A stretch of 64,000 nucleotides of DNA from Forficula auricularia (lineage: Eukaryota; Arthropoda; Insecta; Dermaptera; Forficulidae), in assembly GCA_024734495.1 (NCBI GenBank), contig JALMQS010000099.1:103136019-103200018 (forward strand), in the 5' to 3' direction. Both the position numbers and the translations under genes were made by a program. The notes below the pieces were generated by a model, which was not told where the DNA came from, did no database searches, and saw nothing but the letters and a program-made list of their open reading frames with translations. Shown piece by piece: positions 8,801 to 56,000 of the stretch; the stretch's first letter is position 1; each line of letters starts with the position of its first letter.

Positions 8801-11800
8801 CCCCATAAAAAATATAGGCTATGTTTTTTTCTGTGAATCAAATTTCATAATAAATCATTTTATTATAATTTTTTGTTGTTGGACCCCTCTTGGCCAAATT
8901 GGACCCCATAAAAAATATAGGCTATGTTTTTTTCTGTGAATCAAATTTCATAAAAAATCATTTTTTTATAATTTTTTGTTGTTGGACCCCTCTTGGTCAA
9001 ATTGGACCCCATAAAAAATATAGGCTGTGTTGTTCTGTGAATCAAATTTCTTAAAAAAATCATTTTTTATTTTGGGACCCCCTCAGCTAAATTTGACCCC
9101 ACCAGAAAAAATATTGGCCATCTGTATCAAATTTCATCAAAAATCATTTTCATCATTTTTATGGGACCCTCCAGCCAAATTGGACCCCACCATAAAAAAC
9201 ATATGCTATATGCTGTTCTGTGAATCAAATTTCATAAAAAATCATTTATCATTTTCTTATTTTGGGACCCCTCAGCCAAATTAAATACATATATTTATTT
9301 TTCAAATATCTTATTCAAAATATATCATTTAAAACAAAATTTATATAACCGATTCAGAATATATCTTTGAAATATATTTAAAAACATTAAAAAATTTATA
9401 CTGGAGAGATATAAAAATAATTTTATTTTAAAAACATATTTAAAACACATAAAATTTATATCGAATTCTGAATATATCGTTGAAACATAGTTACAAACAT
9501 TAAAAAATTTATACTAGAGAGATATAAAAATAATTATATTTTAAGAATATATGGAAAACATAAACTTTACATAAATTTAACACAAAATTTTTATATTTTT
9601 AATATATTTTCAAAAAATATATAAAAAACATATTTCGAAAATCTATTTATTTCCATACATTTTCCATAACTATAAAATAAAATCTTAATATAATGATTTC
9701 GGGTGCAACGCCTGCTTTTATCATTGAAAAAGGTCCTGATAATGAAGCTAAATATGGAGGAACATTTTATAATTTTGGAATGTTATTTCTGCTTCGTTGA
9801 AGTTTAGGTAAACTTTTGAATATATACCTATCTATGATATTTTTTTTTTTTTATTTATTTATTTATTTATCTTAACCAATTATTTCATAATTGACAAAAG
9901 ATTTGTTATTCACATACTTAAAGCACACTTTAGGAAAATATTTAACAAATATAATTCCTCACTTAACAATATATATACAATAATAAGATCAATATTATCC
10001 AAATGGAATAATTAATATAATTTGTTAACTAAATAGTTCATATGTTTTTCTTCTTTTTAGTCGACGAACATTATCATCAACGTTGAGCATTTGTTTCATT
10101 TCTTGATTTTCATGTTTGTGTAGACGTTGGTGGTGTCTAACGGCATATTTGTGGATTTCTTCTGTGACTGCATCGAGGTGTAGATCTCGGTGCAGGTCAC
10201 TATTTCTGATGTACCAAGGGGCATTTACAATACTTCTTAGGACTTTATTTTGAAATTTTTGTATAATTTCTATATTGGACTTTTTTGTACAGCCCCACAA
10301 TTGAATCCCGTAGGTCCATACGGGTTTCAAAATTTGTCTATAAATTAAAATTTTATTTCTCACAGACAGCTCTGAATTGCGTCCAAGTAGCCAGTAAAGT
10401 TTTCGAAATTTGATGTTAAGTTCTTGTTTTTTAATCTTCACGTGTTCTTTCCACTTTAGTTTTGCATCTAGAGTCATGCCTAGATACTTAGCTGTATTGG
10501 CATAAGGTATTCTTTGGTGATTAATTTGGATAGGAATAGTAACTATTTTCTTATAGGTAAAATTGATATGGGTTGACTTTGTTTCATTGAGCTTTATTCG
10601 CCATCGTTTGGTCCATTCGTTGATTTTGTTTATGGCACCTTGTAGCTTAGCTGTAACTTCATAAACATTTTCATCGACTGCAAGGAGTGCTGTATCATCA
10701 GCAAATGTAGCTATAGCAGCATTCTCATCAAGTGGAATGTCATTTGTAAATAACAAGTATAGAGTTGGGCCAAGAACACTGCCCTGAGGCACTCCAGCAG
10801 ATATTTGCTTTAGTTCAGAATGCTCATCGCCATGGCGAACTCGAAAGCGTCTATCTTTGATATAAGATTGCAATATTTCGAAAAACTGTTCAGGTAGATA
10901 CTCATGTAGTTTGACTAAAAGGCCTTCATGCCAAACTTTGTCGAAAGCCTGAGCAACATCAAGAAAAACTGCTGCACAGACTTTTTTTCTTCAAAAGCTT
11001 TTTCAATGATATTCGTTATGCGGTGTACTTGGTCAATTGTGGAGTGTTTATTTCTGAAGCCAAATTGGTGTGAAGGTATTAATTTCCTATGTTTTATAAT
11101 TTCCATAAGTCTCCCTAATAGTAGTTTTTCAAAGATTTTTGACAAAATCGGCAACAATGATATTGGTCGATATGAGGCCACTTCTGTAGGCTCCTTTCCA
11201 GGCTTAAGAATAAGTATCACTTCAGCAATTTTCCAGTGGTGAGGCACATACCTAAGTATAAAGCAAGCGTTTATGAGGTATTGTAGTTTATAAAGGGCTA
11301 CATCGGGAAGCTCTTTCATGATGTACCCAGTTATGAGGTCATATCCGGGAGCTTTCTTTGCATTTAAGTTATAGGAGATAGTATTCCTAACTTCTTTTAA
11401 GGTAACAAGAGGAATTTCTTTTTTGTCAGTTTTATGTATGAAGGTAGGATTATCATTAGAATTTAAAGGTGGATTAGGTGTAAAAACATTTTCTAAATAA
11501 TCAGCAAAAATATCCGATTTTTGTTTTGAACTCCTGGCCCAATTTCCATCTGGCATTTTCAAAGGGGAATCTTGAATTTTAGGTCTTCTAATTTTCTTGG
11601 TGGCTTTCCAAAGAGAATATTCAGTTTCTTTGTCAGGAGTTAATTTTTCAAGATATTCACTTATTGACTCATTTTTAAATTCTAAAATACGTTTTTTTAA
11701 TTGGCTATTTAAACGATTCAATATAGTTTTGTGATCGGGGTGTCTGGATTGTTGCCACTTTCTTCGAGCTTTCCGTTTTGACAAGATAAGTTCTTTTATA

Positions 11801-14800
11801 TCCAATGGATAAAATATTTTATGAGAAATATTTTCTCGTACTGATGGTGTGCTTTCCTCTGCTGCTTGTTGTATATCAGCTATGAATTGCTCAACTTCTT
11901 TATCAATTTGCTCTTTTGTCGTAAGTGGTATTTGGAGGTTTATAAACTGTTCGAGCTTTCTTCTAAATTCATTCCAATCAGTTTTTTTGTTGGTGAGGCT
12001 TGGAGGGATTTTCTTTTGCAGAACATTTTCGCTAAGTGTTAGGATTATCGGGGTATGATCTGATGATAGATCATTGCTACCTTCCACATGAATATATTTA
12101 TTTGAAATTCCTTTAGATATAAAAAAGTCAATCAAATCTGGAATTTTCGCAGGGTCGGTTGGCCAATAAGTGGGCAATCCTGAAGATAAAAATTCACATT
12201 TACAGGTTTGTGCTGCTTGATAAAGTTCTCTTCCTTTTGTTGTTATTAATCTTGATCCCCAGTGCGTATGCTTGGCATTGTAGTCACCTCCAATGAGAAA
12301 ATGATTTCCAAGGGTTTTAAACAGATTGGAATAAACATCTTTATTTAGACAATGCTTTGGTGGACAATAAATTGCTGAAATTTTCACGTCGTTATTTTTA
12401 GCACGTATTGAAACTGTTGTAACTTGCATAGAAGGATCTTCGATTTTTTGTTCTTCGTGATGTTGAATAATGCTTCTTATTAATATAGCCGAACCTCCTC
12501 TTGCCTTTTCAGATGGATGTGGACTGTGATAGAAGTTATAATCGCGAATTTTCACATAGGATTGTTTTGTGAAGTGTGTTTCGGAAATGAGACACATATC
12601 TATCTTTTTCGTTTCTTAGAAATATTTCTAATTCCGAAATATGGTGAAGTAGGCCATTTGCATTCCATGTAGCTATACATAATGTTGTCTACACTATCTA
12701 TGATATCAAACAATTTATATTTGAATGTATTTATTTTCATTTGAGAAAAAAAATATACAAGAGTTGATTGAACTAGAATATCTATTTACATTATTTATGT
12801 GAAATATACCTGGTCGTTTAATCAACTCTTATTTAAAATGTTTCAACTATAACTAGAACTGATACTAAGATGTTTCAAGATTAAAAAATTAAACATCCAA
12901 TCAAAATAAATAAACTAAGATGAAAATTCTTAAAAAACACTAATTTTATTCTTCGGTATCGTAGTTTTCAAAAAAAAACGATTATGAATTTTGAATAAAT
13001 TGGTTTTATTAATTAAAAGTTTAAATTACAATAGGTTATACTTGGAGATTGGAGGTCTCAAGTCGAACGTGATCAAGACAAGCCTTAATGTTCCCACTGG
13101 ACATCCGTCTTTATATACTAGATAACTGCTGAGTCTGTAACTCTCTCAGCGTGGGAATAGATAACAAAATATCCTGACGTGACTCCTCCTTCCTCCGGGG
13201 AGAAATTTCATTATTTTATGAAATTTCTTCACAATTTAGTTTTGCTCAAAATATTGAGTTTATGTTACAATCATTTATTTGAATCATTACATTTATATCA
13301 ATTATATTACAATCATTTGAATTATTTATTATAATCATTTAAATTTCCATATTATTTCTTAATTTATTACATTTTATTATATCAGCAATTTTCATTTTAT
13401 ATTTGTTTAATAAGTACAATATAATTAACAATATTATTATAATTATGATTATTATTATTATATATAAATCTACTTTGTCTGTTTGCTTTATTTTCAAATC
13501 ATTAAAATTAATCACTAATATTTCACTTTTCACTTTATTTTTCACTTTACAATATATATAAAATATTTTAACAAACATTTATAGGTAATTATACTATTTT
13601 ACTTGATATAGATATCTTAACAAATAATTATTTTATTTTATTCAATACACAATATGGATATTTTAATAAATTTCATTAATCATATTTATTCATTTAATAC
13701 ACATTACATGGATATTTTTATATTTTTATATTATTTCACTTGGTATTAGTTATTCTGACAAAAATTTCTCTTTATATTCTTAAAAGAATAATTATTTTAT
13801 TTTACAATAGTAAATCTTTTTATTTCGAGAATAAACAATTTCTACAGTTTCTTAATTCATTATTTAATTTTTTATTTATTATGAAATACTGGTAAAGGAA
13901 TAAATTGAATCACTGATGCGTTCATGTTTACATTGTTTACATTTCGGGTATTTTTAAAATTACGTCTACGAGTTCATTCTCAATTTTACAAATGGGTTTC
14001 ACGAACTGTGTGGTTTCCCAAAAATTCTCGAATTTTGATTACTATTTTATAATTATCAATTTGGTTTTTTCAAATCTCTATTAAAATTCATCATTGGAAT
14101 CCCAAAAATCTTTTTCATTTATACCTATAAAATATAACTGTTTATCAATCTATTTCCTTAAATTGTTTACTTCTATATTTTAAATTGCTATATTGCTAAC
14201 TAATTAAATTATTCATACTTGATTAACCTATAGTAGCTATCATTAAATATATTCTTACGCTTTGCATCTCTCGCTTTGATTATCCTTGACTTAAATCTTA
14301 GATTTCATTACCTCATCGCGTTATCAAGTGGGTCAGTAATATTATTTGTTCTCTCTTTCTGAAATAAACGTGGTCTTTTTAATCTATCAATACGATATTT
14401 ATTATTGCTCCTATCTATTACTTTTCCCTAAATTTTGATCATATTCTTTAAGTCTAATTTCCGAAAAATTTGGTGTTCCCTTAGGCTTTCTCTTCTTTCT
14501 TTTCAAAAATAAAGTATTAGGTAACTTAGAGGGGTTTTCCTCTCCTGACCTCTTTTTCTTATTTTCAATATTTGTTTTAATTAATTTAAACATTAAGTCT
14601 TTTTCCTGACTATATTGATTTATTACTTCCGAATCTATTATTTCGTTATTTATTTGTAAATTATCTCTCCCATATAAAACTTCAAACGGACTTTTTCCTA
14701 TTGTTGAATGAATAGTATTATTATACGCTTTCACTATTAAATTCATTTTTCTTTTTATGTTATAATTCTTACATTCAGTATTTTGATTAATTATTTGTAA

Positions 14801-17800
14801 ATGTTCTAAAATTGTAGAGTGTACCCTCTCTATCGGGGAATTCGATTTTGGGTTTTCGATGCATGTATAGTGGATTTCTATATTATTTGTTCTACAAAAG
14901 CTTTTAAGTAATTCATTATTGAATTCATTTCCGGCATCGGTAATTACTTTTTGGGGTAACGGAAATCTACTAAATATTCTTTCTATTTTCCTAACAATCT
15001 CAACTGCTGTTAAATTCTTTATATGTATTACTTCTACAAATTTCGAAAATTGGTCTACCATTGTTATGAACTTAGTTTTATATATCTCAAATACATCTAT
15101 ATTCACTATTTGAAATGGTTTACTCGGGGTTTCAGTTTTATTAATATTTTTAATTGGGTTTCTCTCGTATTTTGCCTTTAAACAAATTTCACAATTATTT
15201 ATATATTTCTGAATATCTTTCTTTATTGCGGGCCAATAATATTTTCTTTTTATTTCTAAATAATTTTCGGCTATACCTCTGTGATTAGTTATACCTTCAT
15301 GAATATCTTTCAATATTTTTAGCCTGTGTTCTAAATCCTCAATATCTTCTAAAATCTTACTACACTTGTAAATATTTAAACTATTGAATGTTTGCTGAAT
15401 TAAATTATTTAAGGGAATAAATAATGTTTCATCTTTAAAATAGATATAAAATTTTTCCTTGCTATGTATATATTCTAGTAATATTTTCGTCAGTTCGAAA
15501 TCTATTTCTTGTTTATTTATTGTAATCATTAATCTATTTTTATTATTGAATAATTTTAATTTTTCTACTTTTGTGTCATTATCATGTGAATCTAAAATAA
15601 TTTGGTTTTTGAAAATATTTACTGCTACATTTTCGAGAATTTTTATTCCTGCTACAGGGGATTCTTCCGCGGAATGTACTGTCTCTAAACCTTCATTATC
15701 ATCACCAGCTGTCGCTAAAATAGATTCTAACTCATTATTTATGATTTCATCGATTTCCATTTCGTTTATGTGTACTTCATATTTTAAATCCGACTTTAAA
15801 TTATTTATTGATTGATCGTTCAATGACACCTTACCCTCTGAATTTTTTCCATCTTTTACCCTATGTGAATACTGACATAAATTACCTATCTTTGGGGTAT
15901 TTTTAATGTCTTTCCTATTTTTAATTTTTACTCTTTGGTGTGTGGGTTGATGAATTAGTTTTTCATCCCTTAACATCTGATCTTTTGTTTTCGTTAACTG
16001 GCTAACATTCTTTACCTTACCTACGTATTTTTTATTAATTATTTTATTATTTATCTCAGGTTCATTGACCTTATCATTAGTTTTAATAACATCATTATCA
16101 GTTTTATCCTTGCTAAACTTTATTTGTTTATCTACGGGTTCATGTTTCTTTTTAACGTCTGTGGGCTCTAATTTATCATCTACTATTTCCTCTTTGTCTA
16201 GGCTACTAAGTGAATCACTGTTTGTATCATCACTTTTGTGGGAAAATTTTTTATCTATCTCGCTAATATGATATCTGAGTTTATATTTCGTATTCTCGTA
16301 TGTAATTATGTCGTTCTTAAAATCCCACTCAAATTCTAACTTTTTGATTGCGTCTAACCCTATTAAAATATCAAAATCCTTATGAAAATCAATTATTAGT
16401 GTTTTTATATATTCTTTTCCTAAAAATTTTACATATGTGTATTCAGTTATTTTTCTGGACCCATTAATAGATTTTATAAAATTATCCTCTTTAAACTTTG
16501 TATATAAATTAGCAATATTTGGTTTTATTAGATTTACAGTAGATCCTGTATCTATTAATACTTTTAAATTCCTCCACTCTAAATATGGTAATAATGATTT
16601 TTCGTTTATACTGTCCCTATATTCAAAATTATTATAATTAATTTGGGATGTTATGTAAGTTCGTTCTCTCGGGGGCCACTTCCTAAAAAATGATTTTCTC
16701 TTCTTTCCTGACCTGAATGATTCTGAATTGTTTGTGTGGACATTGGGGTTTGATTAAAATATTGTGGACGTGGGGGCCTGTAATTATTATGATTTCTATA
16801 ATTATTAGAGTTTTGATAACCATTTTGATAATTTTGGAAATGGGGTCTGGGTTGAAAATTCTGTCTAGGTTGAAAGTTCCTAGGTTGAAAATTTCTGTAA
16901 CTTGTATTATTATAATTATTATTATTTATTTTTGGTCTGCCCTCATTTGTTAGTGCATTCGTTCTATTGAGAATGTACTCATAAACCTCGTATACTGAAC
17001 CTAGATTTTGTGCTAAAACCTGGCTTGCTGTGGGTTCCTTTAATGTTTTTATAAAAATTTGTGTGGCATCTTTAGAAAATTCTTTAATTAATTCGGTTTT
17101 AATATCTGTTTCAATATTTCTGGCGTTTATTCTGGAATTATACTGGGTCATTAATTTATTTATTTCTACATAATTTTTCTCGATTCCTAGATTTTTATTC
17201 GTTAAGGAAAATAATTCTACTTTAATTGTATTTTCGTTCTTTGGCGATTTGAATAAGTTTCTTAATAAAATTACTAATTCGTCCCAATTTCTGACATGGT
17301 GGCCTAATATTTTATGCCTTGCGTCACCTATTATTTGATTTTTTATATGTAATAGAATTAAATTTTGTTGATCAATGGGGACTTCGCTAAAATTTCTTAC
17401 AATTGCCTCTGTATTTTCAATAAATTCCTCCAATAATTCAGGGGAACCGTTATATTTAGGAATCAATTTTAAAAGTTCGGAATGGGATAATGTAGCCATT
17501 GTTTATTCTTTTTAATTATTTATTATTTATTTAAATCTGTTAAGTCTTCCTCAAGCAATTACTATTATTTTATATTAGTATTATTTTATTTATAATATTA
17601 TTTATTTCAATTCATGCATTAACTTTATTCATTTACTTGTATTATTACTTTGTTTAACTTTCACAATTATTTTATTATTTTATTTCGTGCATTAACCTTT
17701 ATTTATTTATTTGTATTATTACTTTGCTTAACTGTCACAATTATTTCATTATTTTATTTATTTATTTAACAATTATTCACTTATTTCATGCATTAACCTT

Positions 17801-20800
17801 TATTTATTTCTTTATTTAACATTTATTTATTTATTTATCTCATGCATTAATCTCTTTTACAATTATTTATTCTATTTAATTATTTTTCACAATTTTTCAA
17901 TATTTTTAACAATTATTTATTTATTTTTAACGTTTAATTTATGGGCCGTGTAACAGTACGGTTGACCGGAAGGATGTCTGTTCGTTTCTAACCTTTGTGT
18001 TGTATTCTCCGCTGACGATGCTGACTGCGCCCTTGGGAAGTTTCGGCTGTATCTTCCTCAGTATTTGTGTGATGTCCCGCAGCTCGAAGTCCACTCCTCG
18101 TTAAGGCTGGTGGCTTCCTATCGCTCCGAATTGGTTGGCGATTGGCTGACGGTTGTCAACGGGTTGTCGTGGCAAGGCGACGATAGGTTTTTCGCTGGTA
18201 AACAGCTAAAAAGCTGACCGTTCGTTGGCACTGCGACACGAACGTCGTGCGATTCCCAAATCCGAAATTTTAGGTTTTGGCCTACCGAAATCCGGGGTTT
18301 TTGGGTTTTGTCCTACCGACTGCGCCAATTTTATTCTTCGGTATCGTAGTTTTCAAAAAAAAACGATATGAATTTTGAATAAATTGGTTTTATTAATTAA
18401 AGTTTAAAAATACAAGAGGTTATACTTGGAGATTGGAGGTCTCAAGTCGAACGTGATCAAGACAAGCCTTAATGTTCCCACTGGACATCCGTCTTTATAT
18501 ACTAGATAACTGCTGAGTCTGTAACTCTCTCAGCGTGGGAATAGATAACAAAATATCCTGACGTGACTCACTTTTTTACAATACAGTATTGTAATCGTGA
18601 ATAAAAAAATTGCTTTTTTTGCTTCGTTTTTTCGAAATATCTCAAAAACGGCTGAAACTCTCGTGACCAAAAAAAAAGGGGGAGGGGGTTCAAAAATCGA
18701 AGGAAGCTGATATTCCTAATAAAAAGGGGATATTATTAATTGCTAATTGACCGAAAAATTAAGATGGATTCTTTCTTAAATATGATAAATTATTTTATTA
18801 ATATTAAATATAAGAGAAGGGCCAGGTGATGTATGTTAAAGTCATGTGGATGGTCATATTAGTTTATTTTTAACTAGCTGCAAGGCCCGCCTTCGACGGC
18901 CCTCTTGCTAGCCAGGGGCACGCCCCCTGGACCCCCAACCCACGAATCCCACCCTCACACTACACTCCCCCGACCCATCCAGCACCCCTACCCCCGCACC
19001 ATGAAACCGTGCCCAACCCCCGCCCCCATACCACAGAACCCAAATCACCCCTCCCACTCCAACCCACCACACTCCCCGAAACCCACCCAGCACCCCAACC
19101 CCCGCCCCCACACCACCACCCCAACCCTCACCCCACCCACCTCGGGCCCCCAACACACGAACCCCAACCTCACTCCCCACTCCAACCCACCACACTCCAC
19201 GAAACCCACCCAGCACCCCAACCCCCGCCCCCACACCACCACTTCAACACTCTAACCTGCACCCCCACCTCGGACCCCCAATCCGTACCACCCCACTACG
19301 CCACTGGACCCTCACCTGAACCCCCCATCCACCAACCTTGCCCCCCCCCCCACACTCCGCCATACTCCCTCACTCCACCGCCATTCCACTCCGCGCATCC
19401 CATGCCCTAACCCACCCCCACTCCACCCCCGCACCCAGTTTTTGCATTTCTAGCCTTCTAGTGACCCACAGATTATGTAAACAAAATTTGGTTGAGTTTG
19501 GTCCAAGAGCAAGAATTTTCATTTTTTGACCCCCCCCCATTTTGGGTGGTTAGTTTTTGCATTTCTAGCTTTCTAGAGTCCCTCAGATTATGTATACAAA
19601 ATTTGGTTGAGTTTGCTCCAAGGGCAAGAATTTTCATTTTTTGACCCCCCCCCCATTTTGGGTGGTTAGTTTTTGCATTTCTAGCTCTCTAGAGGCCCAC
19701 AGATTATGTATACAAAATTTGGTTGAGTTTGGTCAAAGAGCAAGAATTTTCATTTTTTGACCCCCCCCCCATTTTGGGTGGTTAGTTTTTGCATTTCTAG
19801 CTCTCTAGAGGCCCACAGATTATGTATATAAAATTTGGTTGAGTTTGGTCCAAGAGAAAGAATTTTCATTTTTTGACCCCCCCACCCCCATTTTGGGTGG
19901 TTAGTTTTTTTTATTTCTAGCTCCCTAGAGGCCCACAGATTATGTATACAAAATTTGGATGAGTTTGCTCTAAGGGCAAAAATTTACATATTTTTCACCC
20001 TCCTCCCCTTTTTTGGGTGGTTTTTTGGGGGAATTTTTTTAAACAAAAGTTGTCAAAAATCATACCCCATACAACTTTGCTCATTGTAAAATTTGCCGTA
20101 GAGTTAATAGTTTAAGAGTTATTTGATAATTTTCATTCATGCGCCCGCCCCCCAAACACCCTTTTGGGGCTAAAATATCAAAACGTTATATAGCTAAAAA
20201 CGTAAGTTAGAAGACACCTGATACAAATATGAAATTTCATAATAATCCCTTCAGCCGTTTTGACGTGAATCGTGAGCAACTTTTCGCGGAAACCACTGAA
20301 ACAAACAGACAGACAGACAGAAATTTTGTTGAGGGCGTTTTCGTTCATAACTTTGCTTGAAACGTGTGCAACCAAAATTTGGCGTGATTTGGACCAATGT
20401 ACAGACAAAACCTTAATTTTATATATATAGATTTAATTTTTTTTGCTAATTAATATACCTTCAGCTATTTAAGACCCGTATCCACAGATACCTCAGGAGC
20501 TCATTTCTGATGATGAGTACGTGGTTGGCGACCATGGGGTTTTCCGAGCTGGGTCTGACATTGCTTCCACTTACTTATGTCAGGCTCCTTTCTGTTAACT
20601 TTCCTATCTGGCCTCCCTTGGCCAACTCTTGTTTCTTCCGACCCCGACGCTATTAGGTTTTCGAGGGCTAGGGGTCTTTTCATCCTTCATCTTCTACTCT
20701 TGGTTGGTGACACCTAAATTCACCTAGGAGAAGGAATACTCTGATTTCAAAACCAGGGGAGATAGGCCTCTATAGCCCAGTAAGGCAGCCAGTCTAGTGG

Positions 20801-23800
20801 AAGAAAACCACGAAAGAAAATTCCTGGTCCTCCAAGTTGGGGGTTTAGCGCAAAGCTAACAACCTTACCTTAGAAAAAATAAATGATGTTTTGAAAACTC
20901 GCGAAGCCTCGGAAAATAAAAATGGACAGATTAAACATACACGGACTGGCAAACGAAATAAGGACATGAGAATTGGATCTTGGAATATTCGGACACTATA
21001 TGCGGCAGGAACGGCCCAAATTCTGGAAAAAGAATGTAAGAGATACCAACTAGATATATGTGCACTGCAAGAAGTTAGATGGTTGGATTATGGTTCTGTG
21101 CTGATTGAAGATAGTACGTTGTACTATAGTGAGCATCCTAACGAACATAAGGGTGGGGTCGGATTTATGGTGAATAGCAGAACTCTGAGTAGTGTAAATA
21201 GACTTCCGCCCGTTTAATGAAAGAATATGTGTGTTGAGGATTAAGGGAAAATTTTATAACATATCATTTGTTAATATATATGCTCCTACGGAAGATAAGT
21301 CAGAAGAAGATAAGGAAGCCTTTTATCAAGATCTAGAATTCATATACAATCAACTTCCTCAGTATGATCTTAAGATTATCCTTGGAGATGCAAATGCGAA
21401 AATAGGTAGAGAAGAAATATTGAGACCCACAATCGGAAAGGAAAGCCTCCACCTTGATTCAAATGAGAATGGACTTAAGATGGTGGGCTTCGCTACTATG
21501 AACAACTTAATGGTGATGAGTACATATTTCCCTAGGAAAGACATATATAAACAAACATGGGTGTCGCCTGATGGCAATACAAGAAATCAAATAGATCACT
21601 TCCTGGTTGACAAAAGACACAAAACTAGTGTTAAAAATGTTCGTAGCTACAGAGGTGCCGAAATGGGGACTGACCATTTCTTGGTTGTTATGACGCTGGG
21701 AGTAAAAATTCGGAAAGTGATTCATACCACGGAGTCATTGAAGGGTTATAAATTTGACTTAGAAAAGATCAACATGCCAGGTATGAAAGAAAAATATCAG
21801 AGGGAAATCAGAAGGCATGGTGGCAATTATGAGGAAGATGGGTTGCCTGAAGTGGATGAACTATGGGAAGGGATGAAATGCACTATTAAAGAAGCGGCCA
21901 AGGAAGCTTTTGGAGAGGCTGAAAGAATTAAGAACAGGAAGCCATGGTTTGAAAAGGAATGTGTGGAGGCTGTTGAGAGGAGGAGAGAGATTCGTTTGAA
22001 ATACCTGGGTGGAGGAGAATCGTTAGAAAATTACAGAGGGGTCCAAAGAGGGGTGAGTAGGCTTCTGAGACGAAAGAAGAGAGAATTCTATAAAAGAAGG
22101 ATATCAGATTTAGAGCAAGCCTACGATCAAGATAGAATAAGAGATTTCTACCAGGAAATAAGACAAGAAAGAAATGGTTTCAAGGCCAGGTCGTGCATAA
22201 TTGCTGATATAAATGGTAATGATATAACAGAAAAAGATAAAATCATGGCTAGATGGATGAATTACTTCCAAGAGTTGTTAAATTTTACTCCTCCTAGAGA
22301 ACCCCTAGAGCACAGTATATATATTACGGCAGAGAACTATGTTGAAGTCCCCACCAGGAATGAGATAGCGGAGGCAATGCATCATCTTAAAAACAGAAAG
22401 TCACCTGGTATTGATCAAATCCCCTCAGAATTGTTGAAGGCGGGAGGTGATTCGCTGATGGACATGATGCATATCCTAATAACAAGAATATGGGATAGGG
22501 AGGAGAATCCTGGTGAGTGGAGAGAAGCATTGATAGTCCCAATACATAAAAAAGGTAATAAGAAGATCTGCGGGAATTATAGAGGAATCTCGCTTTTGAT
22601 AACAGCATATAAGATATTATCTCGTATCTTGCTGAGAAGACTAAGTCCCATCTCAGAGGAAGTTCTCGGGGAGTATCAGTGCGGTTTCCGTAAGGGTAGA
22701 TCAACATCGGACCAGCTGTTCAACATCCGACAACTAATGGAGAAGAGATGGGAATACGCCTTGGATATACACCATCTCTTCATTGATTATAAACAGGCAT
22801 ACGACATTGTATATAGGGAAAGCCTATGGACTATAATGGAAGAGTTTGGATTCCCCAAGAAATTAATCAGAATGAAGGTATGTGTGTGCGGATCAAAATC
22901 TAGAGTGAAGCTGGGTGGAAACTTATCTCAGCCTTTTGAAATTGGAACGGGTTTGAGACAGGGTGATGCCTTGTCACCATTGCTGTTCAATCTAGTTTTG
23001 GAGAAGATAATGAGGAGTGTAAAACGGGTTGACGCGGGCGTGCCTCTGGGCAGAGTACTGAGGGCCTTCGGAAATGCGGATGACATTGATCTTGTCTGCA
23101 TGAGTGAGGAAGGACTGAAGAGAATGTTCGGTGCGCTCGAGAAGGAAGGGAATGGGGTGGGTTTAGTTATAAGTGAAGAGAAAACCAAATACATGCTAAT
23201 GTCGAGATCCTTACCAAGCTGCACACCAATGAAAGTGGGGAACAGGGTTTTTGAGGGCGTAGCCAGGTTTAAATGTTTGGGCGCTATAGTGATGTCGGAT
23301 GCCAGAATAGACCAGGAAATAATCTCTCGAATACATGCGGGTGATAGAGCTTTGGCAAGTCTGAGTGGAGTACTTCGAATGAGAGTTCTATCACGAGAAA
23401 TAAAAATAAAAATATACAATACCTTAATAAGACCGGTTGTGATATATGGCTGTGAGTCGTGGACAATGACGCTACTTAACCAGAGGAGACTGATAAGTTT
23501 CGAGAACAAAGTTCTCAGGAATATATGTGGGCCTGTTCAAGATCTAACTTCTGGTGAATGGAGACGAAGATCCGAGGAAGAAGTCAGAGACTTGACAAAG
23601 CAGCCATATATCTCAAGTGTAGTGGGGAAAAGAAGATTAGAATGGGCCGGTCATGTGGTTCGTGCTCCGAAAACCAGGGACATAAAGAACCTCCACGAGA
23701 GCTACCCGCCTGGAAGAAGACCACCAGGCAGACCAAGACAAAGATGGCTGGATAATGTCGTCAGAGATCTGCAAGAGCTTCACGTGGGGGGCAGGATGGG

Positions 23801-26800
23801 AGGGATTGGCCCAGGATAGAGGGATATGGAGAGGCATCACGCGAGAGGCTCAAGCTCTACAAGGGCGATTTGGCCATCGGAAGTAAGTAAGTAAGTATCC
23901 ACAGATACCTTCGACCCCCGCCCAACCCATAAAATTCCTTCTTCTTCTTTTCACGATGGAGGGGCCAACCCAGGCCTTTAGGGGTTGCACCTTTTTGGTG
24001 TAAACCCTTCTCTCATCATTATCATAAAAAAAAATATTTTGTACCATATCAAATTCTACATTTTTCGTTTTTTTCTTCCAACCATATGAGGTTCACAATC
24101 GTTTTAATGATTTATTCGAAACCAGTTTTTAAAAATTTTCAATAATAATTGTTTTAAATTTTACAAAATTAAAATATATTTTTAGATCAATTTACATTGA
24201 ATTAGAAACTCGTTTTGGAGAACGATCGAAAAACGGAACTTGGTCCGGAGTCGTTGGCAAAGTCCAAAGTGGAACTGTTGATATTTGTGGACAATTAATT
24301 TTAATCCAGCAAGGAATGGATGCTATAAATCAATTAAGGCCATTGCTGACTGATAGGTAAGGTATATTTGGACAAGTATTTAAGGATGGGGTTATTAAAA
24401 ATGTATCTTGTTACCTAAATAAAAATATGGTGATTTTCTATTCTATGAATATCACACAATTGAAGTGAAATTCCAAAAGGGGGTGGCTTAGGTTTTGAAA
24501 TTATACACAAATTTAAATAATGAAACAATATTTAGGGTGTTCCAAAGAAAGAATATTTTTATTTAAGTATGAACTATTTTGACACCCTATAACTTAAAGC
24601 ATTTTTATTTTCAATAAGTCAAATAATTAATTTATTTTTTAGCAATACATCATTGTAGAACTCATTCAATTTTATTAAGAAAATAGCATAAATACTAATA
24701 TACCAGCTGTGAAGCCCGCCTTCGGCGAGCATCTTGCTGGCCAGGACGATACACCCCCTGAGCTCTGATATCCCCCTTCGGCACGCTACTGGTATTTTCA
24801 AAATTGAGAACTGGCCAAAATGTTTTTCTAATCATCCTCATGCCCGCCTCTAATAAAATAATTTATAATCCCTCCCTCCTTGGCATTAGGTTATAATAGT
24901 AATTACTTGAGAATTAATCTTAATATTTTTTTTAGGATTGTTCTAGCTATTCAGCATCCAGGTTTTATTGAAAATGGAATGAATTGGCAAGCCTTTTTAC
25001 TGCCTTTTGATTTAATGTCTTGGTTAACTATTTTGATAACTATGATATCATTTACCGCGATATTTAAACTTATGGGATATCTTAAAAGAAATAAATGTTA
25101 TCAGCTCTCCATAATTGGATATATTCTTGAAATAACTAGAGCATTATGTCAGCATGGTTTGTATCTTCAAATCATAAGGAATCAAAATTTAATTAGATAT
25201 AATTAATATTTTATAACTCAAAAGATAAACATTAAGCTTATTTTATTATCAAAAGCTAAGTAGACAGGTTACTCGTAACTACTCTAGAGTAAAGTGACCA
25301 GACATCCCGCGACGTTTTAAGAAAGTCCCGATTTTTGGAAAGAATGCTAAAAATGATATTTTTAATGAGGTATCATTATTAAAAAAATATATTGATAAGA
25401 TAAATCTTGGGCATCAGCAGCAATCACAACAGAGAACAAATGGTTAGAAACACTTCATCATTAAGAAAAAAAAAACATATTCCCTACTGAATTAAAAACT
25501 AACTAAGAGTGCTATAGACAAGTCATAGTTTGTTTATAGCAATAGAATTAGGAGAAATTTAAGAGTTTCTTATATGATTTCCATCTCAGGGACTGGGGAT
25601 TATAAGTCATAAGATTTAATTTATGACTCCTACCCTAATAGTTCAGTCAAATTGTGCTCAAATGGTGCCCTACGGGGAAAGTTTTGGAGTAGTTCTGATT
25701 TTTTGCATTTAAATGTTTTTTGGAGCGCTGAATCCAGATGTGATGTCTCCCACCAAAATTTCGTGACGCAACATTGTAGAAAATCCAATAAAAAATGAAA
25801 ATTTCATTTTTTTGTCGGTTTTTTGTTTATAACTAGAAAACTATCAACTTTTTGTAATTAACCTTCCTATTCAAAACGAAACTTCATAAAATTTCCTACA
25901 AATTAGATTATTTAGGTTTTATCTCCGACCAACCGTTCGAGATCAAGCGCAAAATTCAAGTTTTCGACTTCAGCACCCCCGCCAAGAATCGCCCAAAATC
26001 TCGCACTTTTTTCGATATTTTCCCATTTTGACCATGAAGGAGTACGTTTTCGACAAAGACCACTCTCTACATTTTAAAACTAGATTAAATTTGCTACAAT
26101 TTAAACAAAGTTTCATTTTAATTGGATAAATGGTAATTTATGCCGCAATGAGGTTGAAGTTTTGAAAAACTGCAATTTTTCCTTCATAAAATAAAAACCA
26201 CACATCCTAAAAACTTGATTCCTATCTCATTCTCTAGGAAATTTTATTGACTTGAACGTTTACTTGTTCCACTTTTTGTTACAACTCTTAGGTTTATAGA
26301 TATCCAATATTTTCCATAACCAAAAATGATTTATTTTTTCAAAAAATCGCAGTTTTTCCTTCATAAAATGAAAACCAGTTATCCTGAAACATGATTTCTG
26401 TCTCATTATCTAGAAAATTCTATTAATCTAAACGTATGCCTGAACTACTTTTTTGATAAAAGTCTTAGATTTATAGATATCCAGCATTTTCCATGACACT
26501 TCTGAAGATTCGGATCATATCCTGTCATGGACAATGCTGTATATCTATAAATCTAAGAGTTTCATCAAAAAAGTAGTCCAAGTAAACGTTCAAGGCAATA
26601 AAATTCCCAAGAGAATGAGATAGAAACGAAGTCTTTAGGATGAGTAGCTTTCATTTTATGAAGGAAAAATTGCAGTTTTTCAAAACTTCAACCTCATTGC
26701 GGCACAAATTACCATTATCCAATTAAAATGAAACTTTTTTTTAATTAAAGCCAATTTAATCTAGTTTAAAAATGAATAGAGTATTCTTTGTCAAAAAATA

Positions 26801-37642: not shown

Positions 37643-37652
37643 NNNNNNNNNN
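37643..37652. other. Assembly gap (10 N)
   Basis: Ten Ns; the true length is unknown. Confidence 0.95.
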
Positions 37653-50000: not shown

Positions 50001-53000
50001 TCACTTGTATCTATCTATGTATCTATCTATTTATCGATCAATGTGACAGACCAAGATCTCAGCGACCCCAGACCTATGTCAAAGTATAAAGCCTAAGATT
50101 TTTTCTATGGTAGGTACTATAGTAGGTTATAACGTATGGGTATTAGCTAACTTTGGTCAGGGGTCTTTGACAGATATCAGTTACCGAAAATGTGAAAAAA
50201 TGGGTTGATCTACGTCATACTAACAATGCTAGTTTTTTAATATGTCATACAGGATAATATTAGGGACCAACAATTACTATTGCCAGACGCTCTGGGCGGG
50301 TCCTTGCTGGAGCCAGACGCCTCAAAGATCAAAAAAAGTATAGTATCAAGGCTAAATTTTATATATTTTACTCAGAAGAAAATTATAATTGATAAAAATC
50401 TCTAAAAATTCTGAAAGATAGCTACACTTATAAGGATAAAGACTACAGAGTTTCAAAATTTTTGAACCATTACTTTGGTAAAAAAAAAATCACTATTTCA
50501 ATGCTAAAAACGATGGCTATTTTTGATTTTAAGTCGATTCCTCCATGTCTTCAGCAATGGTTACCAATAAAAACCGAAACGTCAAAAATCCAATATAGAA
50601 TGGTTATTCNNNNNNNNNNTCAAGTACTAGATGAGAATCAATCGCTATTTTTGGTTTAAAGTCGATTCCTCTATGTCTTCAGCAATGGTTACCAATAAAA
50701 ACCGAAACGTCAAAAATCCAATATAGAATGGTTATTCCTCAAGTATTTGATGAGAATCAATCGCTATTTTTGGTTTAAAGTCGATTCCTCTATGTCTTCT
50801 GCAAAGGTAAGGGATAAGAAAACAACGCAGTTGCTATGGTTACTTATAAAATTTCCTCCCAAATTTTTAGCATTTCACAGAGAGAAGCCTATCCATTCTT
50901 ATTTAAGCAAGGCTAAATGAGCTATATTAAAAGGTTCAAATGAATAAATTTTAAAGAATTTAAAAAATTAAAAAAGTACTCTCTTACTCTAGAGTAAAGT
51001 ACTTTAAAATATAATTTTACTAAAAACTTTATTTATCCTTTTTTGTGGTCCCCAAGGTACTTAATTAGGATATTAAATTTCATCAAAATTGGTTAAGTCA
51101 TTTTCAAGATATTTAGAAAAAACTAAAAAAGTACTGAAATAAAGTACTAATGTTTGTGGTCCTATCACAACATTGGATGATGTGCGCCGTTGTTTCAGTT
51201 CGTCTGCACCCAGCCCGGCACATCGGGGGCCCCTCCGGCCGTCTTCCCCTGCTGGTTCTTACGGCTGAAGGAAGGGACCCTGATCTCAGCCTACAAAATT
51301 CTATAAAAGTATTTATTGTTTTTAATTACACCTGGGCGCAGCATCCAATTATAAGAGTTCTTTGCTCCCGTGCACATCTCCAAATCCCGGCCATCGACAC
51401 TAGCGTATAGGTTCTCGCGCCAGTAAGCCGCAACACCCTCCACGCCGCCGAACTTACGCAAGACCCGTTCGGCCCAAGCTAACCTCCGAATGCATGTGAC
51501 CGAGTCAGCGGCCGCTCTGGCCGCCGGGTAGTCGGATTGCCTCATTCTACTGAGTCGGGCATGCACCAAGAGTGGGATCATGCTCCCCAGGGATGGCAGT
51601 CCGAGTCCGCCATCCCGTATTTTGGCGTGGAAGTATGCTTCTGGCGTGTCGCGGGGGAGTTTAAGGATCGATCTGACAAATGATCGAACCTTTTTGTCGG
51701 CCGTTGTCAGTTGACCGAATGTACTCCCCCCCAACACAAGGGGGTGAATAGCCGACGGGATGATATGAAGGCGCACGATCTCCAGCTTTTGCGAGGCCTT
51801 AAGAGGGGCCCCCCTCACCCTTCCCAGAAGTGGCTCCACCGACCACCCCGGGGTGACAACGCCCGAGCTGTCCAGGCGGACTCCAAGGTAGGGAAAGGAA
51901 TCACCCACCCCCAAAGGGGTAAGGCGTCCACCATCCACCCTGAAGTCGGTGTCTGTACTAACACGGATTCTCCTGCCCCCCGCAGGCACCAAAGAGAGCA
52001 CGACGGACTTGGCGGCATTAATCCGCATCCCCAGTGCAGCAGCAGCCGACTCGAAGGCGCGAAGCTGGGACCCCAATCCGCGAGAAGACGCCGCCACAAG
52101 AACGACGTCGTCAGCAAAGGAAAGGGATCCGACGCGTACACCCCCGAGGTCATAGCCGATGTCCGGGGACAACTGATCTAGTATGTGTTTTGCCGCCAAG
52201 TTGAAAAGAAAGGGAGAGAGAGGGTCCCCCTGCCTCACACCCCGGCCGGTCTTGAAGAGATCAGATCGTGAGCCCTCATGGAGGATAGATGTTGTTCCTC
52301 CTGTATACATCGACCTGACCACAGAGAAGAGAGAGGGGTCCAAGAGATCACCCAGGATATCCATAAGAGGCTGATGTTTAATCGTGTCAAATGCCTTCGA
52401 TATGTCCAGGGACGCGACGTGCAGCTCTTTAACCTGACACCTCGCATCCCTGATAACAGCCCCCAGGACCTGAGTGTTCTCAGCACAACCATCAGCTTTG
52501 ATGAAGCCCCTCTGGTCACCCCGCAGCTCAACAGTGCCCTCCAGTCTATGCAGGAAGACCCTGCTGAGCTGCCGAGCGACGACAGAGTTCACAGTGATTG
52601 GCCGATAATGTTGGGGAGAGGTCGGCGAGACTATTTTCGGAATAAGCACAGTGCGAGCGCGGGACAGAGCATGTGGAACCGTGCCCTCGAGGAGAATCGC
52701 ATTAAGCAGGGCGAGACGGTCAGCCCCAGGTAGTCTTTTCCAAGACGCCGAGGTCAGACCATCCGGCCCCGCCGCCGATTTGACCGGTCCGTCGGCACTC
52801 TTCAGCTCCTCGAGGGTTATCGGAAGAGGGAGAACCCAAGGACGGTCGGAAACGGCGTCGAGTTCGCCGCGACAGTCACCGAGGACTTTTCCCCAGTACT
52901 GCCACATTGCGGGGGAACTCCACGCCGCGATCCGGAACCCCCTCAAGTATCTCCCTCACGGCTAGATTTTTATTCCTATACCACATGCTCTGCATGCGGT

Positions 53001-56000
53001 TATAATCCGCGCGCTCTGCCCTGTGCCTTTCCAATCTGTTGGTCGGTTGGGGTCTGATGTAAGGACCCCTTGGTCTCACCACCCTCTCACCACAATCTGC
53101 AGGCCCCCTCCCCCACCTCCGCAGACAGGCATCAAGTAAACCATCCCATGGCCTCCCCTCTAAAGCACTGGCGACGATCCCCGCCACAGCAGTGTCACGC
53201 CTCGCGAATGTTAAATAAGCCTTAAGGGCAACGATCAATGGCGGGTCAAGGGCATCCACCTCACGCTCGCCTCCTCCGCCTCCGGGTGGTGGGTCTCCCC
53301 CCGAATCTTCCTCTTCGGTGTCCTCATCTTCTTCCGCGGGCTCGTCCTCCTCGAATTCTTCCGTCCCGATAGGATGCTGGGCGGCGCTGGTAGATGGTAT
53401 CGCCTGTTGCTGTCCACAGCCAACATCATCCTTCTTCTTCTTCGTATTGCCGGGTTTCGGAGCTGGTTCTGGTGGAGAGGAGAGCGACCGCGGGACAGAG
53501 CATGTGGAACCGTGCCCTCGAGGAGAATCGCTCAATTTTGAAATCGCTCACCATTTTCTTGTATGCGGCCTTCCTCCTCTGTCCCACAATCTCCGCGAGA
53601 GTCCTCCCCTCAAACTTCTCGAGGAGATATTTATTTATGAATTTAACCCTCTCCGGGGCCTCGGCTTCCGTCCGCGCTAGGATCCTCACCTCTTCTTGAC
53701 CACAGCGCGGCGACTTTTCGCTGATACCAATTGCGGCGTTGTGGGCCACTTTATGTTTAGTGGCCAAATGTATGCCGAGGCCCTTATTTTTACGAAATGC
53801 CCTGTTGCAGTGCGGGCACACGCATTTCGTATCTGTCATATTTGAGTATAGAAAGCGCAGGTCTAGCCCCCAGACTTATGGGCTGGGGGCTGAAAATGTG
53901 AATTCTTAAATTTGACCTGTCTTTTAAGGCCGAAGCCCCGCCAGAGCCCCCTTTTCGCGCTGAGGTTGGAGGTTGGCTTGCCGGTCTGAGTGCCCGCTCA
54001 GCCCGACCTTAGCGCTTCCTTAATAACTTAAAAAAATATATATATAGGCTGCGCACGTGACCGGGGGTGGGGATTACTTTGATCAAGGTTGCTTCACACC
54101 TCTGCGGCCCATCAGGGTGACTATGTAGGAGGGGGGGCCATAGGGTGTGGAAGTGTGAAATTAACCCAGGCCGTGCGCAGTCTTGTCCTTGTCGATTTAG
54201 TAAAAGATCGGGCCTCACAACGCTACCTAACTAATGATTTTAATGGATGTGTATGAGATGATTAAATAAATATCGAGTTATATGGAATGAGATGATTTAA
54301 TAAATAGTGGATTACTGTGATATGTATTAAAATGTTTTATGAAGTGAATAAATAAATAATGAAATGCAGAATGAATGAAATGATTTAATAAATAATGAAA
54401 ATAGCGCCGTGAGGTGTGTCAAGGAATAAATAAATATTAAAAGTTGTAATACAGTAATATATGCTGTATGTCAAATAAAATAAAAAAAAAGTAGAGTGGT
54501 GTTCCCGTTTTAACTTGTATGAACTGGGGAGGTTCTAGGAGGGGAGCACCCATAGAGCGGCACAAGAAGAGCTAATTATGGTAATATATATTTACGGTGT
54601 AGGGATGAGCTGGGGAGCCCTGGGGGGGGGGGGGGGAGAATGCCAAAAAGTAAGTTGAACGGGCTAAGAAATTGATTCGCCTAGTGTGTAGGCAGCCAAA
54701 CCACATTGGTGTTCATTGGCCACCGGATTGCAGAGGCAATCCAAACAAGCCCCTTGGAGTTAGGCAACCGAATACACATGTATGTATAAATTGGTTGCCC
54801 AGTGTCCAGGGGCAAAAATTGACTCCCCACTATATGCCCACTCTTGAATATTGGGCCCCTTCGACCACTTTTTACCCGCCCCTTATTTAGCTCTATTGAA
54901 GAACATCTCAAGTGTTTGAATTTGGCGGTAGCTGAGGCTTAGCGCTAGTTGAAGGAGATGGGATGACGTCAATCTTAACGTCATTCCTTTGTCTCAAAGC
55001 AGCCATCTCTAATTTTTTAGAAAATTTTTTAAAAAATGTCTTTGGAAGACTTTCCTGGGATCCTTTGAGTTAGAATTTTTGGGCCCATGTAGAAAAAAAC
55101 TTCGCTCGCCTAATGGGACTATGCCCCAGGCCCTAAGGCCAGAAATGTCCCCCCCATGGACAAATAAGTGTTATTGGGGGGAATTGCCCCCCATTAGGCG
55201 ACCCTTTGGGCTTGCGCCCTCGGGGACGCGGCCCCTAATAAGTGCCGCTCCAAGGTACTCACCCACAAATTTTCGGCCTTTAAAACGCCATATGTCCGAA
55301 CTTTTCAGGATCAGATGACGGGAGCCGTAGAAAGCATGTCTATTCGGCAGGAAGACACCAGCACTACTAGAAGACGCCGCCACAAGGGCATCCACCTCAC
55401 GCTCGCCTCCTCCGCCTCCGGGTGGTGGGTCTCCCCCCGAATCTTCCTCTTCGGTGTCCTCATCTTCTTCCGCGGGCTCGTCCTCCTCGAATTCTTCCGT
55501 CCCGATAGGATGCTGGGCGGCGCTGGTAGATGGTATCGCCTGTTGCTGTCCACAGGAACGGAAGAAGAAGAAACATTAAATATATTGATAATTATTCCGG
55601 GGGGGGGCCCCCCCCGGCCACCCCACAAATAAAAGAGGTGAAACTTTTAAGAGACTATGTATTTTCGGTAGTTTACGGGTATACATTTGGAGTGTGGTTT
55701 TTTAAGAGGAATAAAATTTTTGGACCGAGAAGCTGCTCGCCAGGGCACCAGCCCGGAGGGCCGAGCTTCGAGGGAGTGCCAAAGGCACGGACGAAAAGCT
55801 CGTTATTTTACTATATATTGCGATATCAAAGGGGATTCATCGCAATATATTATATAAGCACAGAATTTTTTTTCTCCATTCTTCTATAAAGTAAATTAAT
55901 AAATTCAGCTTAAAATGAAAACAAGTTTTTCATACAAGACCTCTTATTTAAATCAAATTCTACATATTTTTTGTTTTTTTCTTCTAAGCTTAAGAGGGTC

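Follow-up and report, generated by a model that had tools for sequence, protein, structure and literature searches.

Retroelements are taken to carry reverse transcriptase (RT) and integrase (IN) together. Ty3/gypsy retrotransposons of the 17.6/297 type encode protease (PR), RT, RNase H, and IN, in that order, in the pol gene of one element, which also has a tRNA-Ser-type primer binding site (PBS), long terminal repeats (LTRs) that begin with AGT, 4-bp duplications of the target site, and an overlap between gag and pol. Multipartite and segmented RNA viruses distribute their essential genes over several segments whose ends are alike. Here, we describe an LTR retrotransposon in a 64,000-nucleotide stretch of the genome of Forficula auricularia (contig JALMQS010000099.1; the whole stretch is hereafter called the window) that shares the PBS type, LTR start, duplications, and gag-pol overlap of the 17.6/297 elements but not their one-piece pol: its own pol encodes protease and IN, and a second type of element in the same genome encodes protease, RT, and RNase H. 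We consider it likely that the window element and this second type are the two halves of one Ty3/gypsy retrotransposon, bipartite and mutually complementing. Like a multipartite virus, such a retrotransposon would have its essential genes divided between segments that share their ends, although the segments here are integrated LTR retrotransposons known from sequence alone.

Several described elements borrow functions from others. Mouse IAP 1-Delta-1, which has a 1.9-kb gag-pol deletion and is the cause of most new IAP insertion mutations, is supplied with proteins by full-length IAPs, and the consulted portions of the two reports describe no element with the reciprocal deletion (PMC6466679, PMC7411935). 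In wheat, RLG_Cereba with RLG_Quinta, and RLG_Wilma with Sabrina and WHAM, are partners with matching LTR ends, PBS, and polypurine tract (PPT), as here, and the defective partner likewise keeps gag and, in some, protease; such partners have been termed mutualistic, or a cooperative complex, but as far as the consulted portions of these sources go, Cereba and Wilma encode everything, and RT and IN are not parted between elements (PMC11302176, PMC9744471). Rice Tos17 (BARE-2 is also named) resembles the present elements in being active while one essential gene is missing and borrowed, but there, in the part of the source consulted, it is gag that is lost while pol is whole, and the partner is taken as complete (PMC3977881). 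In an open-access literature represented by titles and the beginnings of abstracts, with few subscription papers, we found no report in which RT and IN reside on different elements, and we therefore assign this family to the Ty3/gypsy retrotransposons, with an organization that is new and divided.

The window element and its family

The element lies on the minus strand at 12942..18568 (5627 bp), and we call it, as the half without RT, an IN-type element. A first-pass annotation made from the letters alone had described an LTR element there with a CACT target-site duplication (TSD), a PBS, a PPT, and a 282-codon gag, all of which we confirm, with the strand now given as minus. In element sense, the 5′ LTR (AGTCAC...AAAATT; 18327..18568, 242 bp) is followed by the PBS TGGCGCAGTCGGTAGGAC (18310..18327), which starts with TGGCGCAGTCGG and which we take to be of the tRNA-Ser type, as in 17.6/297; the 3′ LTR (12942..13184, 243 bp) is preceded by a PPT ending in GGAGGAAGGAGG (13185..13203), and the CACT copies stand at 12938..12941 on the left and 18569..18572 on the right. 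By its PBS and LTR ends the element presumably stands closer in look to 17.6/297 than to mdg1. Two substitutions and three one-base gaps separate the LTRs over ~241 bp (97.5 % identity by BLAST). The near-identity of the LTRs thus stands as annotated, but other copies have LTRs with no differences, and so this insertion is not among the youngest.

The 282-codon gag (16654..17499, stop codon at 16651-16653) gives a Retrotrans_gag match under the curated cut-off and overlaps, in a -1 relation, a pol frame at 14411..16753, with a frameshift heptamer, T TTT TTA, in phase at 16684..16690. Pol passes openly from protease to IN without RT or RNase H, as had been claimed, but over 780 codons rather than 759; in 500 shuffles of the internal sequence, no frame exceeded 127 codons. 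From its start, pol comprises an aspartic protease with the motif LIDTGST (16247..16597; pol residues 53-169); a lysine- and aspartate-rich spacer, which is the family's protease-RT linker and is common to the RT-type elements (15755..16246; residues 170-333); the deletion junction, at the site of the 1.4-kb RT-RNase H of the RT-type (15728..15778; about residues 326-342); the post-RNase H linker (15344..15754); and an integrase with an HHCC zinc domain and a D,D35E core (14426..15343), the spacing of 35 being counted by hand. The frame is 27 to 46 codons shorter at its end than in most copies read (807 to 826 amino acids), and one other copy, L014, is similarly short (781 amino acids). No env was found 3′ of pol in the window copy, the longest sense frame in 13187-14410 having 79 amino acids, and the copy therefore lacks the env frame that marks an Errantivirus. 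Nor does it resemble large retrotransposon derivatives (LARDs) or terminal-repeat retrotransposons in miniature (TRIMs), which have no coding capacity between the LTRs, since both gag and pol are open. LTRs, a 4-bp TSD, PBS, PPT, gag, and gypsy-type protease and integrase all accord with Ty3/gypsy; the set PR-RT-RNase H-IN is missing from the one element and is given by the two types jointly.

In the window pol, Pfam detects Integrase_H2C2 and rve as well as zf-H2C2 below threshold; neither RT nor RNase H is matched at E ≤ 1. When 52 relatives were aligned with the window (tblastn, E ≤ 1e-3), only the protease and linker-integrase parts were matched. RT and/or RNase H domains are present in 50 of the 52 homologues listed, P0043 and P0048 having neither, and in P0002, P0003, and P0004 the RT-RNase H sits between the regions that match the protease and the IN of the window pol; the protease has no match in P0001 or P0007. 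Named matches among the relatives include beetles and flies, and P0053, from a related species, is 82 % identical in gag. The RT-RNase H of L032, an RT-type copy, is 54 % identical to residues 57-523 of P0001, and the IN part of the window element is 40 % identical to its residues 663-1110; because the two match separate parts of one protein, they look like one pol cut in two. By eye, P0001 also has a macro-domain-like insert between RNase H and integrase (~540-650), unlisted by Pfam at E ≤ 0.01. P0043, an annotated protein of Toxorhynchites rutilus, has integrase domains, a weak gag match, and no RT; it could be a further split element or a gene model. An RT hidden in the spacer, an objection that the first-pass annotation had raised against itself, is ruled out by Pfam and by tblastn of the relatives. 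The spacer is not captured host sequence either, because RT-type elements have the same spacer ahead of their RT. Used alone as a protein query, it gave no matches; no relatives of the element were found in viral contigs, and an Rfam scan of five loci returned nothing.

Our genome searches covered the window's own genome (one assembly); all locus counts drawn from them are lower bounds, and their results hold among the matches listed. At least 57 loci match the whole pol and at least 68 match IN alone at ≥62 % identity, and the many loci bearing the junction rule out a single odd copy. Twenty-two of 30 near-full-length pol rows have no internal stop, and eight have stops. Twenty of the 22 stop-free rows supplied the additional copies that we read (L009-L028, eight of which are also represented by the shorter stretches L001-L008); together with the window copy they make 21, and two more with damaged IN (L045 and L047) bring the IN-type copies read to 23. 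None of L001-L028, L045, or L047 has an RT match. In the 21 copies, chosen as stop-free, pol is open over at least 780 codons throughout, a 282-codon gag and an in-phase heptamer are each present in 16, and a matching 4-bp TSD is present in 19, one side lying beyond the contig in L017. The LTR pairs are without substitution in 11 of the 20 copies where they could be measured, among them L023, in which gag and pol form a single 1070-codon frame; other fused frames are among the gag matches listed. The 5′ flanks are alike in 20 of 435 pairs of copies and mostly differ. Catalytic motifs are kept in 21 of the 23 copies. L045 and L047 have the same IN damage and identical right flanks and are probably a segmental duplication. 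The proposals that RT-RNase H was lost in frame from a nonautonomous element still encoding Gag, PR, and IN, and that its lineage moved recently, are thus borne out, the latter by 20 further copies with their own TSDs and by the substitution-free LTR pairs.

Partner elements and the search for a joined copy

A search of the genome with gag returned many loci beyond those of the pol search. We read 12 of them (L029-L036 and L045-L048): two are IN-type, and ten have the order gag, protease, the same spacer, RT, and RNase H, with intact frames that stop soon after RNase H. All ten of these RT-type copies have LTRs, PBS, PPT, protease, and linker in common with the IN-type, none has an IN match, and the four pols scanned with Pfam all contain RVT_1 and RT_RNaseH and no integrase. 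Past the stop comes a short noncoding relic of the post-RNase H linker and then the IN-type 3′ region; the types differ mid-element, where the RT-type has ~1.4 kb of RT-RNase H and the IN-type ~1.3 kb of linker and IN. The first 320 nucleotides past the 5′ LTR of two RT-type copies are 0.9 and 2.5 % off their nearest IN-type, and LTR, PBS, PPT, and leader provide the common ends and packaging region expected of a bipartite genome. LTR pairs are without substitution in five of the ten copies, TSDs match in nine (in L030 one side is N), and catalytic motifs are kept in nine; 25 of the 38 family RT loci give a whole-query match without a stop.

Repeats misassemble easily, and a short repeat flanks RT-RNase H, which is where an assembly artefact or collapse might have made the junction. 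We give this explanation almost no credence: every one of the 23 IN-type copies read contains the junction, and these copies lie on many contigs, have differing TSDs and mostly differing flanks, and belong to two subfamilies; the reciprocal RT-type is also many-copied. The first-pass annotation's own worry, a sole copy and a collapsed assembly, falls with it.

Is there anywhere a copy with both enzymes? The family has at least 38 RT loci (≥78 % identity), the next family standing at 67 %, whereas the IN listing extends down into other families. Among the matches listed, no IN lies within 6 kb of any of the 38 RT loci and no RT within 6 kb of any of the 68 IN loci, the closest pair being 54.6 kb apart; as a control, IN lies within 6 kb at no fewer than 28 of 53 RT loci of other families (Fisher p 4.6e-9). 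At least 91 gag loci (≥81 % identity) were found, of which 52 adjoin IN, 37 adjoin RT, none both, and two neither. The frames listed around the 38 RTs have at most 828 codons except at C702 (1060, with 14 stops inside), which, read as L036, has no IN match. None of the 33 family copies read (10 RT-type, 23 IN-type) is joined. Functions are divided and no segment has them all, as in a bipartite genome, within this assembly and the matches listed. The first-pass annotation had proposed counting copies with and without RT: those with IN and no RT are indeed many, but those with RT are without IN, and among the matches listed none is joined.

These results bear directly on the possibility that both types are deletion derivatives parasitizing a full-length helper, a member of their own family that is either rare or outside the assembly. 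Mobilization of such derivatives by full-length copies is documented for IAP 1-Delta-1 in the portions consulted (PMC6466679, PMC7411935), one such source could yield both types, and the window element does have the in-frame deletion with an open frame that a deletion parasite would show. The same-family full-length parent, however, did not turn up: neither the 38 RT nor the 68 IN loci among the matches listed include a joined copy. We regard a helper of this kind as unlikely. The autonomous parent assumed in the first-pass annotation was likewise not met with in the listed matches or in the 33 copies read, and a reciprocal partner was found instead.

RT and IN might also come from another gypsy family, with both types as hitchhikers. 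The nearest unsplit family in the same genome (L049 and L050; RT 67 % and IN 58 % identical) has one open PR-RT-RNase H-IN pol of 1269 to 1339 amino acids and the same kind of PBS, and in wheat the distantly related Wilma is considered, in the part of the source consulted, to mobilize WHAM and Sabrina (PMC9744471). The LTRs of the L049/L050 family nevertheless begin with AGTTATACC and those of the split family with AGTCACGTC, the former family has at least three RT and at least four IN matches listed, and hitchhiking leaves the conserved and complementary RT and IN of the two types unexplained. We think this source quite improbable.

Selection, exchange, and shared target sites

The two IN-type subfamilies, A (8 copies) and B (4 copies; 3 for gag), were compared by Nei-Gojobori counts. 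The ratio of nonsynonymous to synonymous divergence (omega) is 0.20 for protease, 0.11 for the linker, 0.10 for IN, 0.07 for gag residues 1-190, and 0.18 for gag residues 191-282; in the spacer it is 0.89. In the RT-type, for which five of the ten copies read were sampled, omega for RT-RNase H is 0.06 (three A copies against L029) and 0.03 (L032 against L031), at a synonymous divergence (dS) of 0.20 to 0.36. Only 16 of 48 changes in IN are nonsynonymous, against 82 % expected (binomial p 3e-13), as are 20 of 93 in RT-RNase H between L032 and L029, against 80 % expected (binomial p 8e-34). These low ratios and few nonsynonymous changes indicate strong purifying selection, under which each half seems to have maintained a functional enzyme during the divergence of the subfamilies. 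The IN-type junction looks the same in one subfamily as in the other, as does the RT-type relic; this suggests a single origin for each type, although module recombination could blur the picture.

The same counts weigh on two of the alternatives. A simple nonautonomous family might have open frames merely through the youth of its copies, and young copies do stay open for a while: a neutral estimate for the window copy is 0.12 if indels are 1/10 of substitutions. That estimate falls to 0.008 if they are 3/10, and the nonsynonymous changes between subfamilies (16/48 in IN; 20/93 in RT-RNase H) are far too few for youth alone, making this account very improbable. Parasites of a full-length helper, for their part, would have little reason to show omega values of 0.03 to 0.12 on an enzyme that the helper makes, cis advantage being possible, and the same two junctions in both subfamilies also speak against parasitism.

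The two types cannot be told apart along gag, protease, and the greater part of the spacer. On a tree of the 33 copies, whose bootstrap is unsettled, the RT-type needs 8 changes, against 8.9 with shuffled labels, and a single RT-type clade is rejected (approximately unbiased test, p 5.8e-11); the IN-type copy L028 and the RT-type copy L030 are identical in gag, protease, and spacer. In successive 100-column alignment segments, net divergence between the types stays within 0.005 of zero, apart from one A segment at 0.024, and then, in the final complete segment at the junction, rises to 0.20 (A) and 0.16 (B). IN-type L020 has an RT-type spacer end, and RT-type L029 an IN-type-like one. By protease, the nearest neighbor is of the same type for 2 copies, of the other type for 5, and tied for 26 (n = 33). 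Such intermixing could come from template switching between both RNA types in one particle; gene conversion between genomic copies is also possible.

Insertion sites, too, are shared. A target motif of about ARYRYRYT (element orientation) is common to 19 IN-type and 9 RT-type sites. Two IN-type copies (L010 and L015) and two RT-type copies (L033 and L036) have both flanks in common, at the same position of one repeat; L020 shares the right flank of this hotspot at 69-70 %, and IN-type L017 and RT-type L031 have a common right flank. A common integrase for both types would be the simplest reading of these sites, because RT-type elements themselves lack an integrase. By eye, the repeat hit by L010, L015, L033, and L036 is a reading frame of a long interspersed nuclear element (LINE), an insertion hotspot for both types.

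A proposed divided element and its significance

We propose that two reciprocal internal deletions would have divided a PR-RT-RNase H-IN pol between two element types that keep in common LTRs, PBS, PPT, leader, gag, the -1 frameshift site, protease, and linker. If the frameshift works as predicted, the IN-type would make Gag and Gag-PR-IN, and the RT-type Gag and Gag-PR-RT-RNase H. The two RNAs, which share leader and PBS, would enter common particles, in which the RT of one type would copy both and the IN of the other would insert both; under such presumed mutual dependence and co-packaging, neither type would move alone. To a stricter form of this proposal we assign even chances: an obligate two-segment element in which an RT-RNA/IN-RNA heterodimer is co-packaged and homogenized by template switching, with no autonomous copy, and which is possibly the first segmented reverse-transcribing element.

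Several points weigh against mutual complementation. The case is sequence-based, being built on two structures, their minimum numbers, recent insertion of both, selection, intermixing, and shared target sites. Listings are the sole basis for 28 of the 38 RT loci and 45 of the 68 IN loci; the two gag loci of 91 that match neither enzyme (C209:917241 and C96:21880064) are known from listings alone; and the first 20 IN-type copies were chosen from stop-free rows, where 8 of the 30 near-full-length rows have stops. Some copies are damaged: the plain 282-codon gag is missing in 5 of 21 IN-type copies, IN is broken in 2 of the 23 read (L045 and L047), the pol frame is broken in 4 of the 10 RT-type copies read, and L010 has no matching TSD. 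Nor is the nearest neighbor always of the other type: by gag it is of the same type for 15 copies, of the other for 7, and tied for 11, and by 3′ untranslated region the counts are 22, 11, and 0, respectively (n = 33 for each). The same-position copies could have come from duplication of an occupied site followed by conversion, and the divergence of IN or RT could be partly older than the split if recombination subsequently moved modules. A full-length copy may exist in unassembled sequence or in other individuals, and the L049/L050 family could act as supplier of the enzymes.

Elsewhere in the window, two LINEs flank the element: one at 10025-12615, Jockey-like by eye, with endonuclease and RT in two overlapping minus-strand frames, and one at 21198-23819 with endonuclease and RT in an 873-codon open frame. 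A pair of minus-strand frames with one RT domain, R2-like by eye, lies in a G+C-rich stretch at 51291-53547. Two runs of ten Ns (37643-37652 and 50610-50619) are both outside the element.

If the two types do complement each other, they would show that reciprocal deletion can give rise to multipartite genomes in retroelements and that complementation can maintain them. Annotation pipelines requiring a single element to contain both RT and IN would label both halves dead or nonautonomous. The pair makes it testable why genomes split, how defective elements turn into partners instead of parasites, and whether mixed RNA pairs form in particles.

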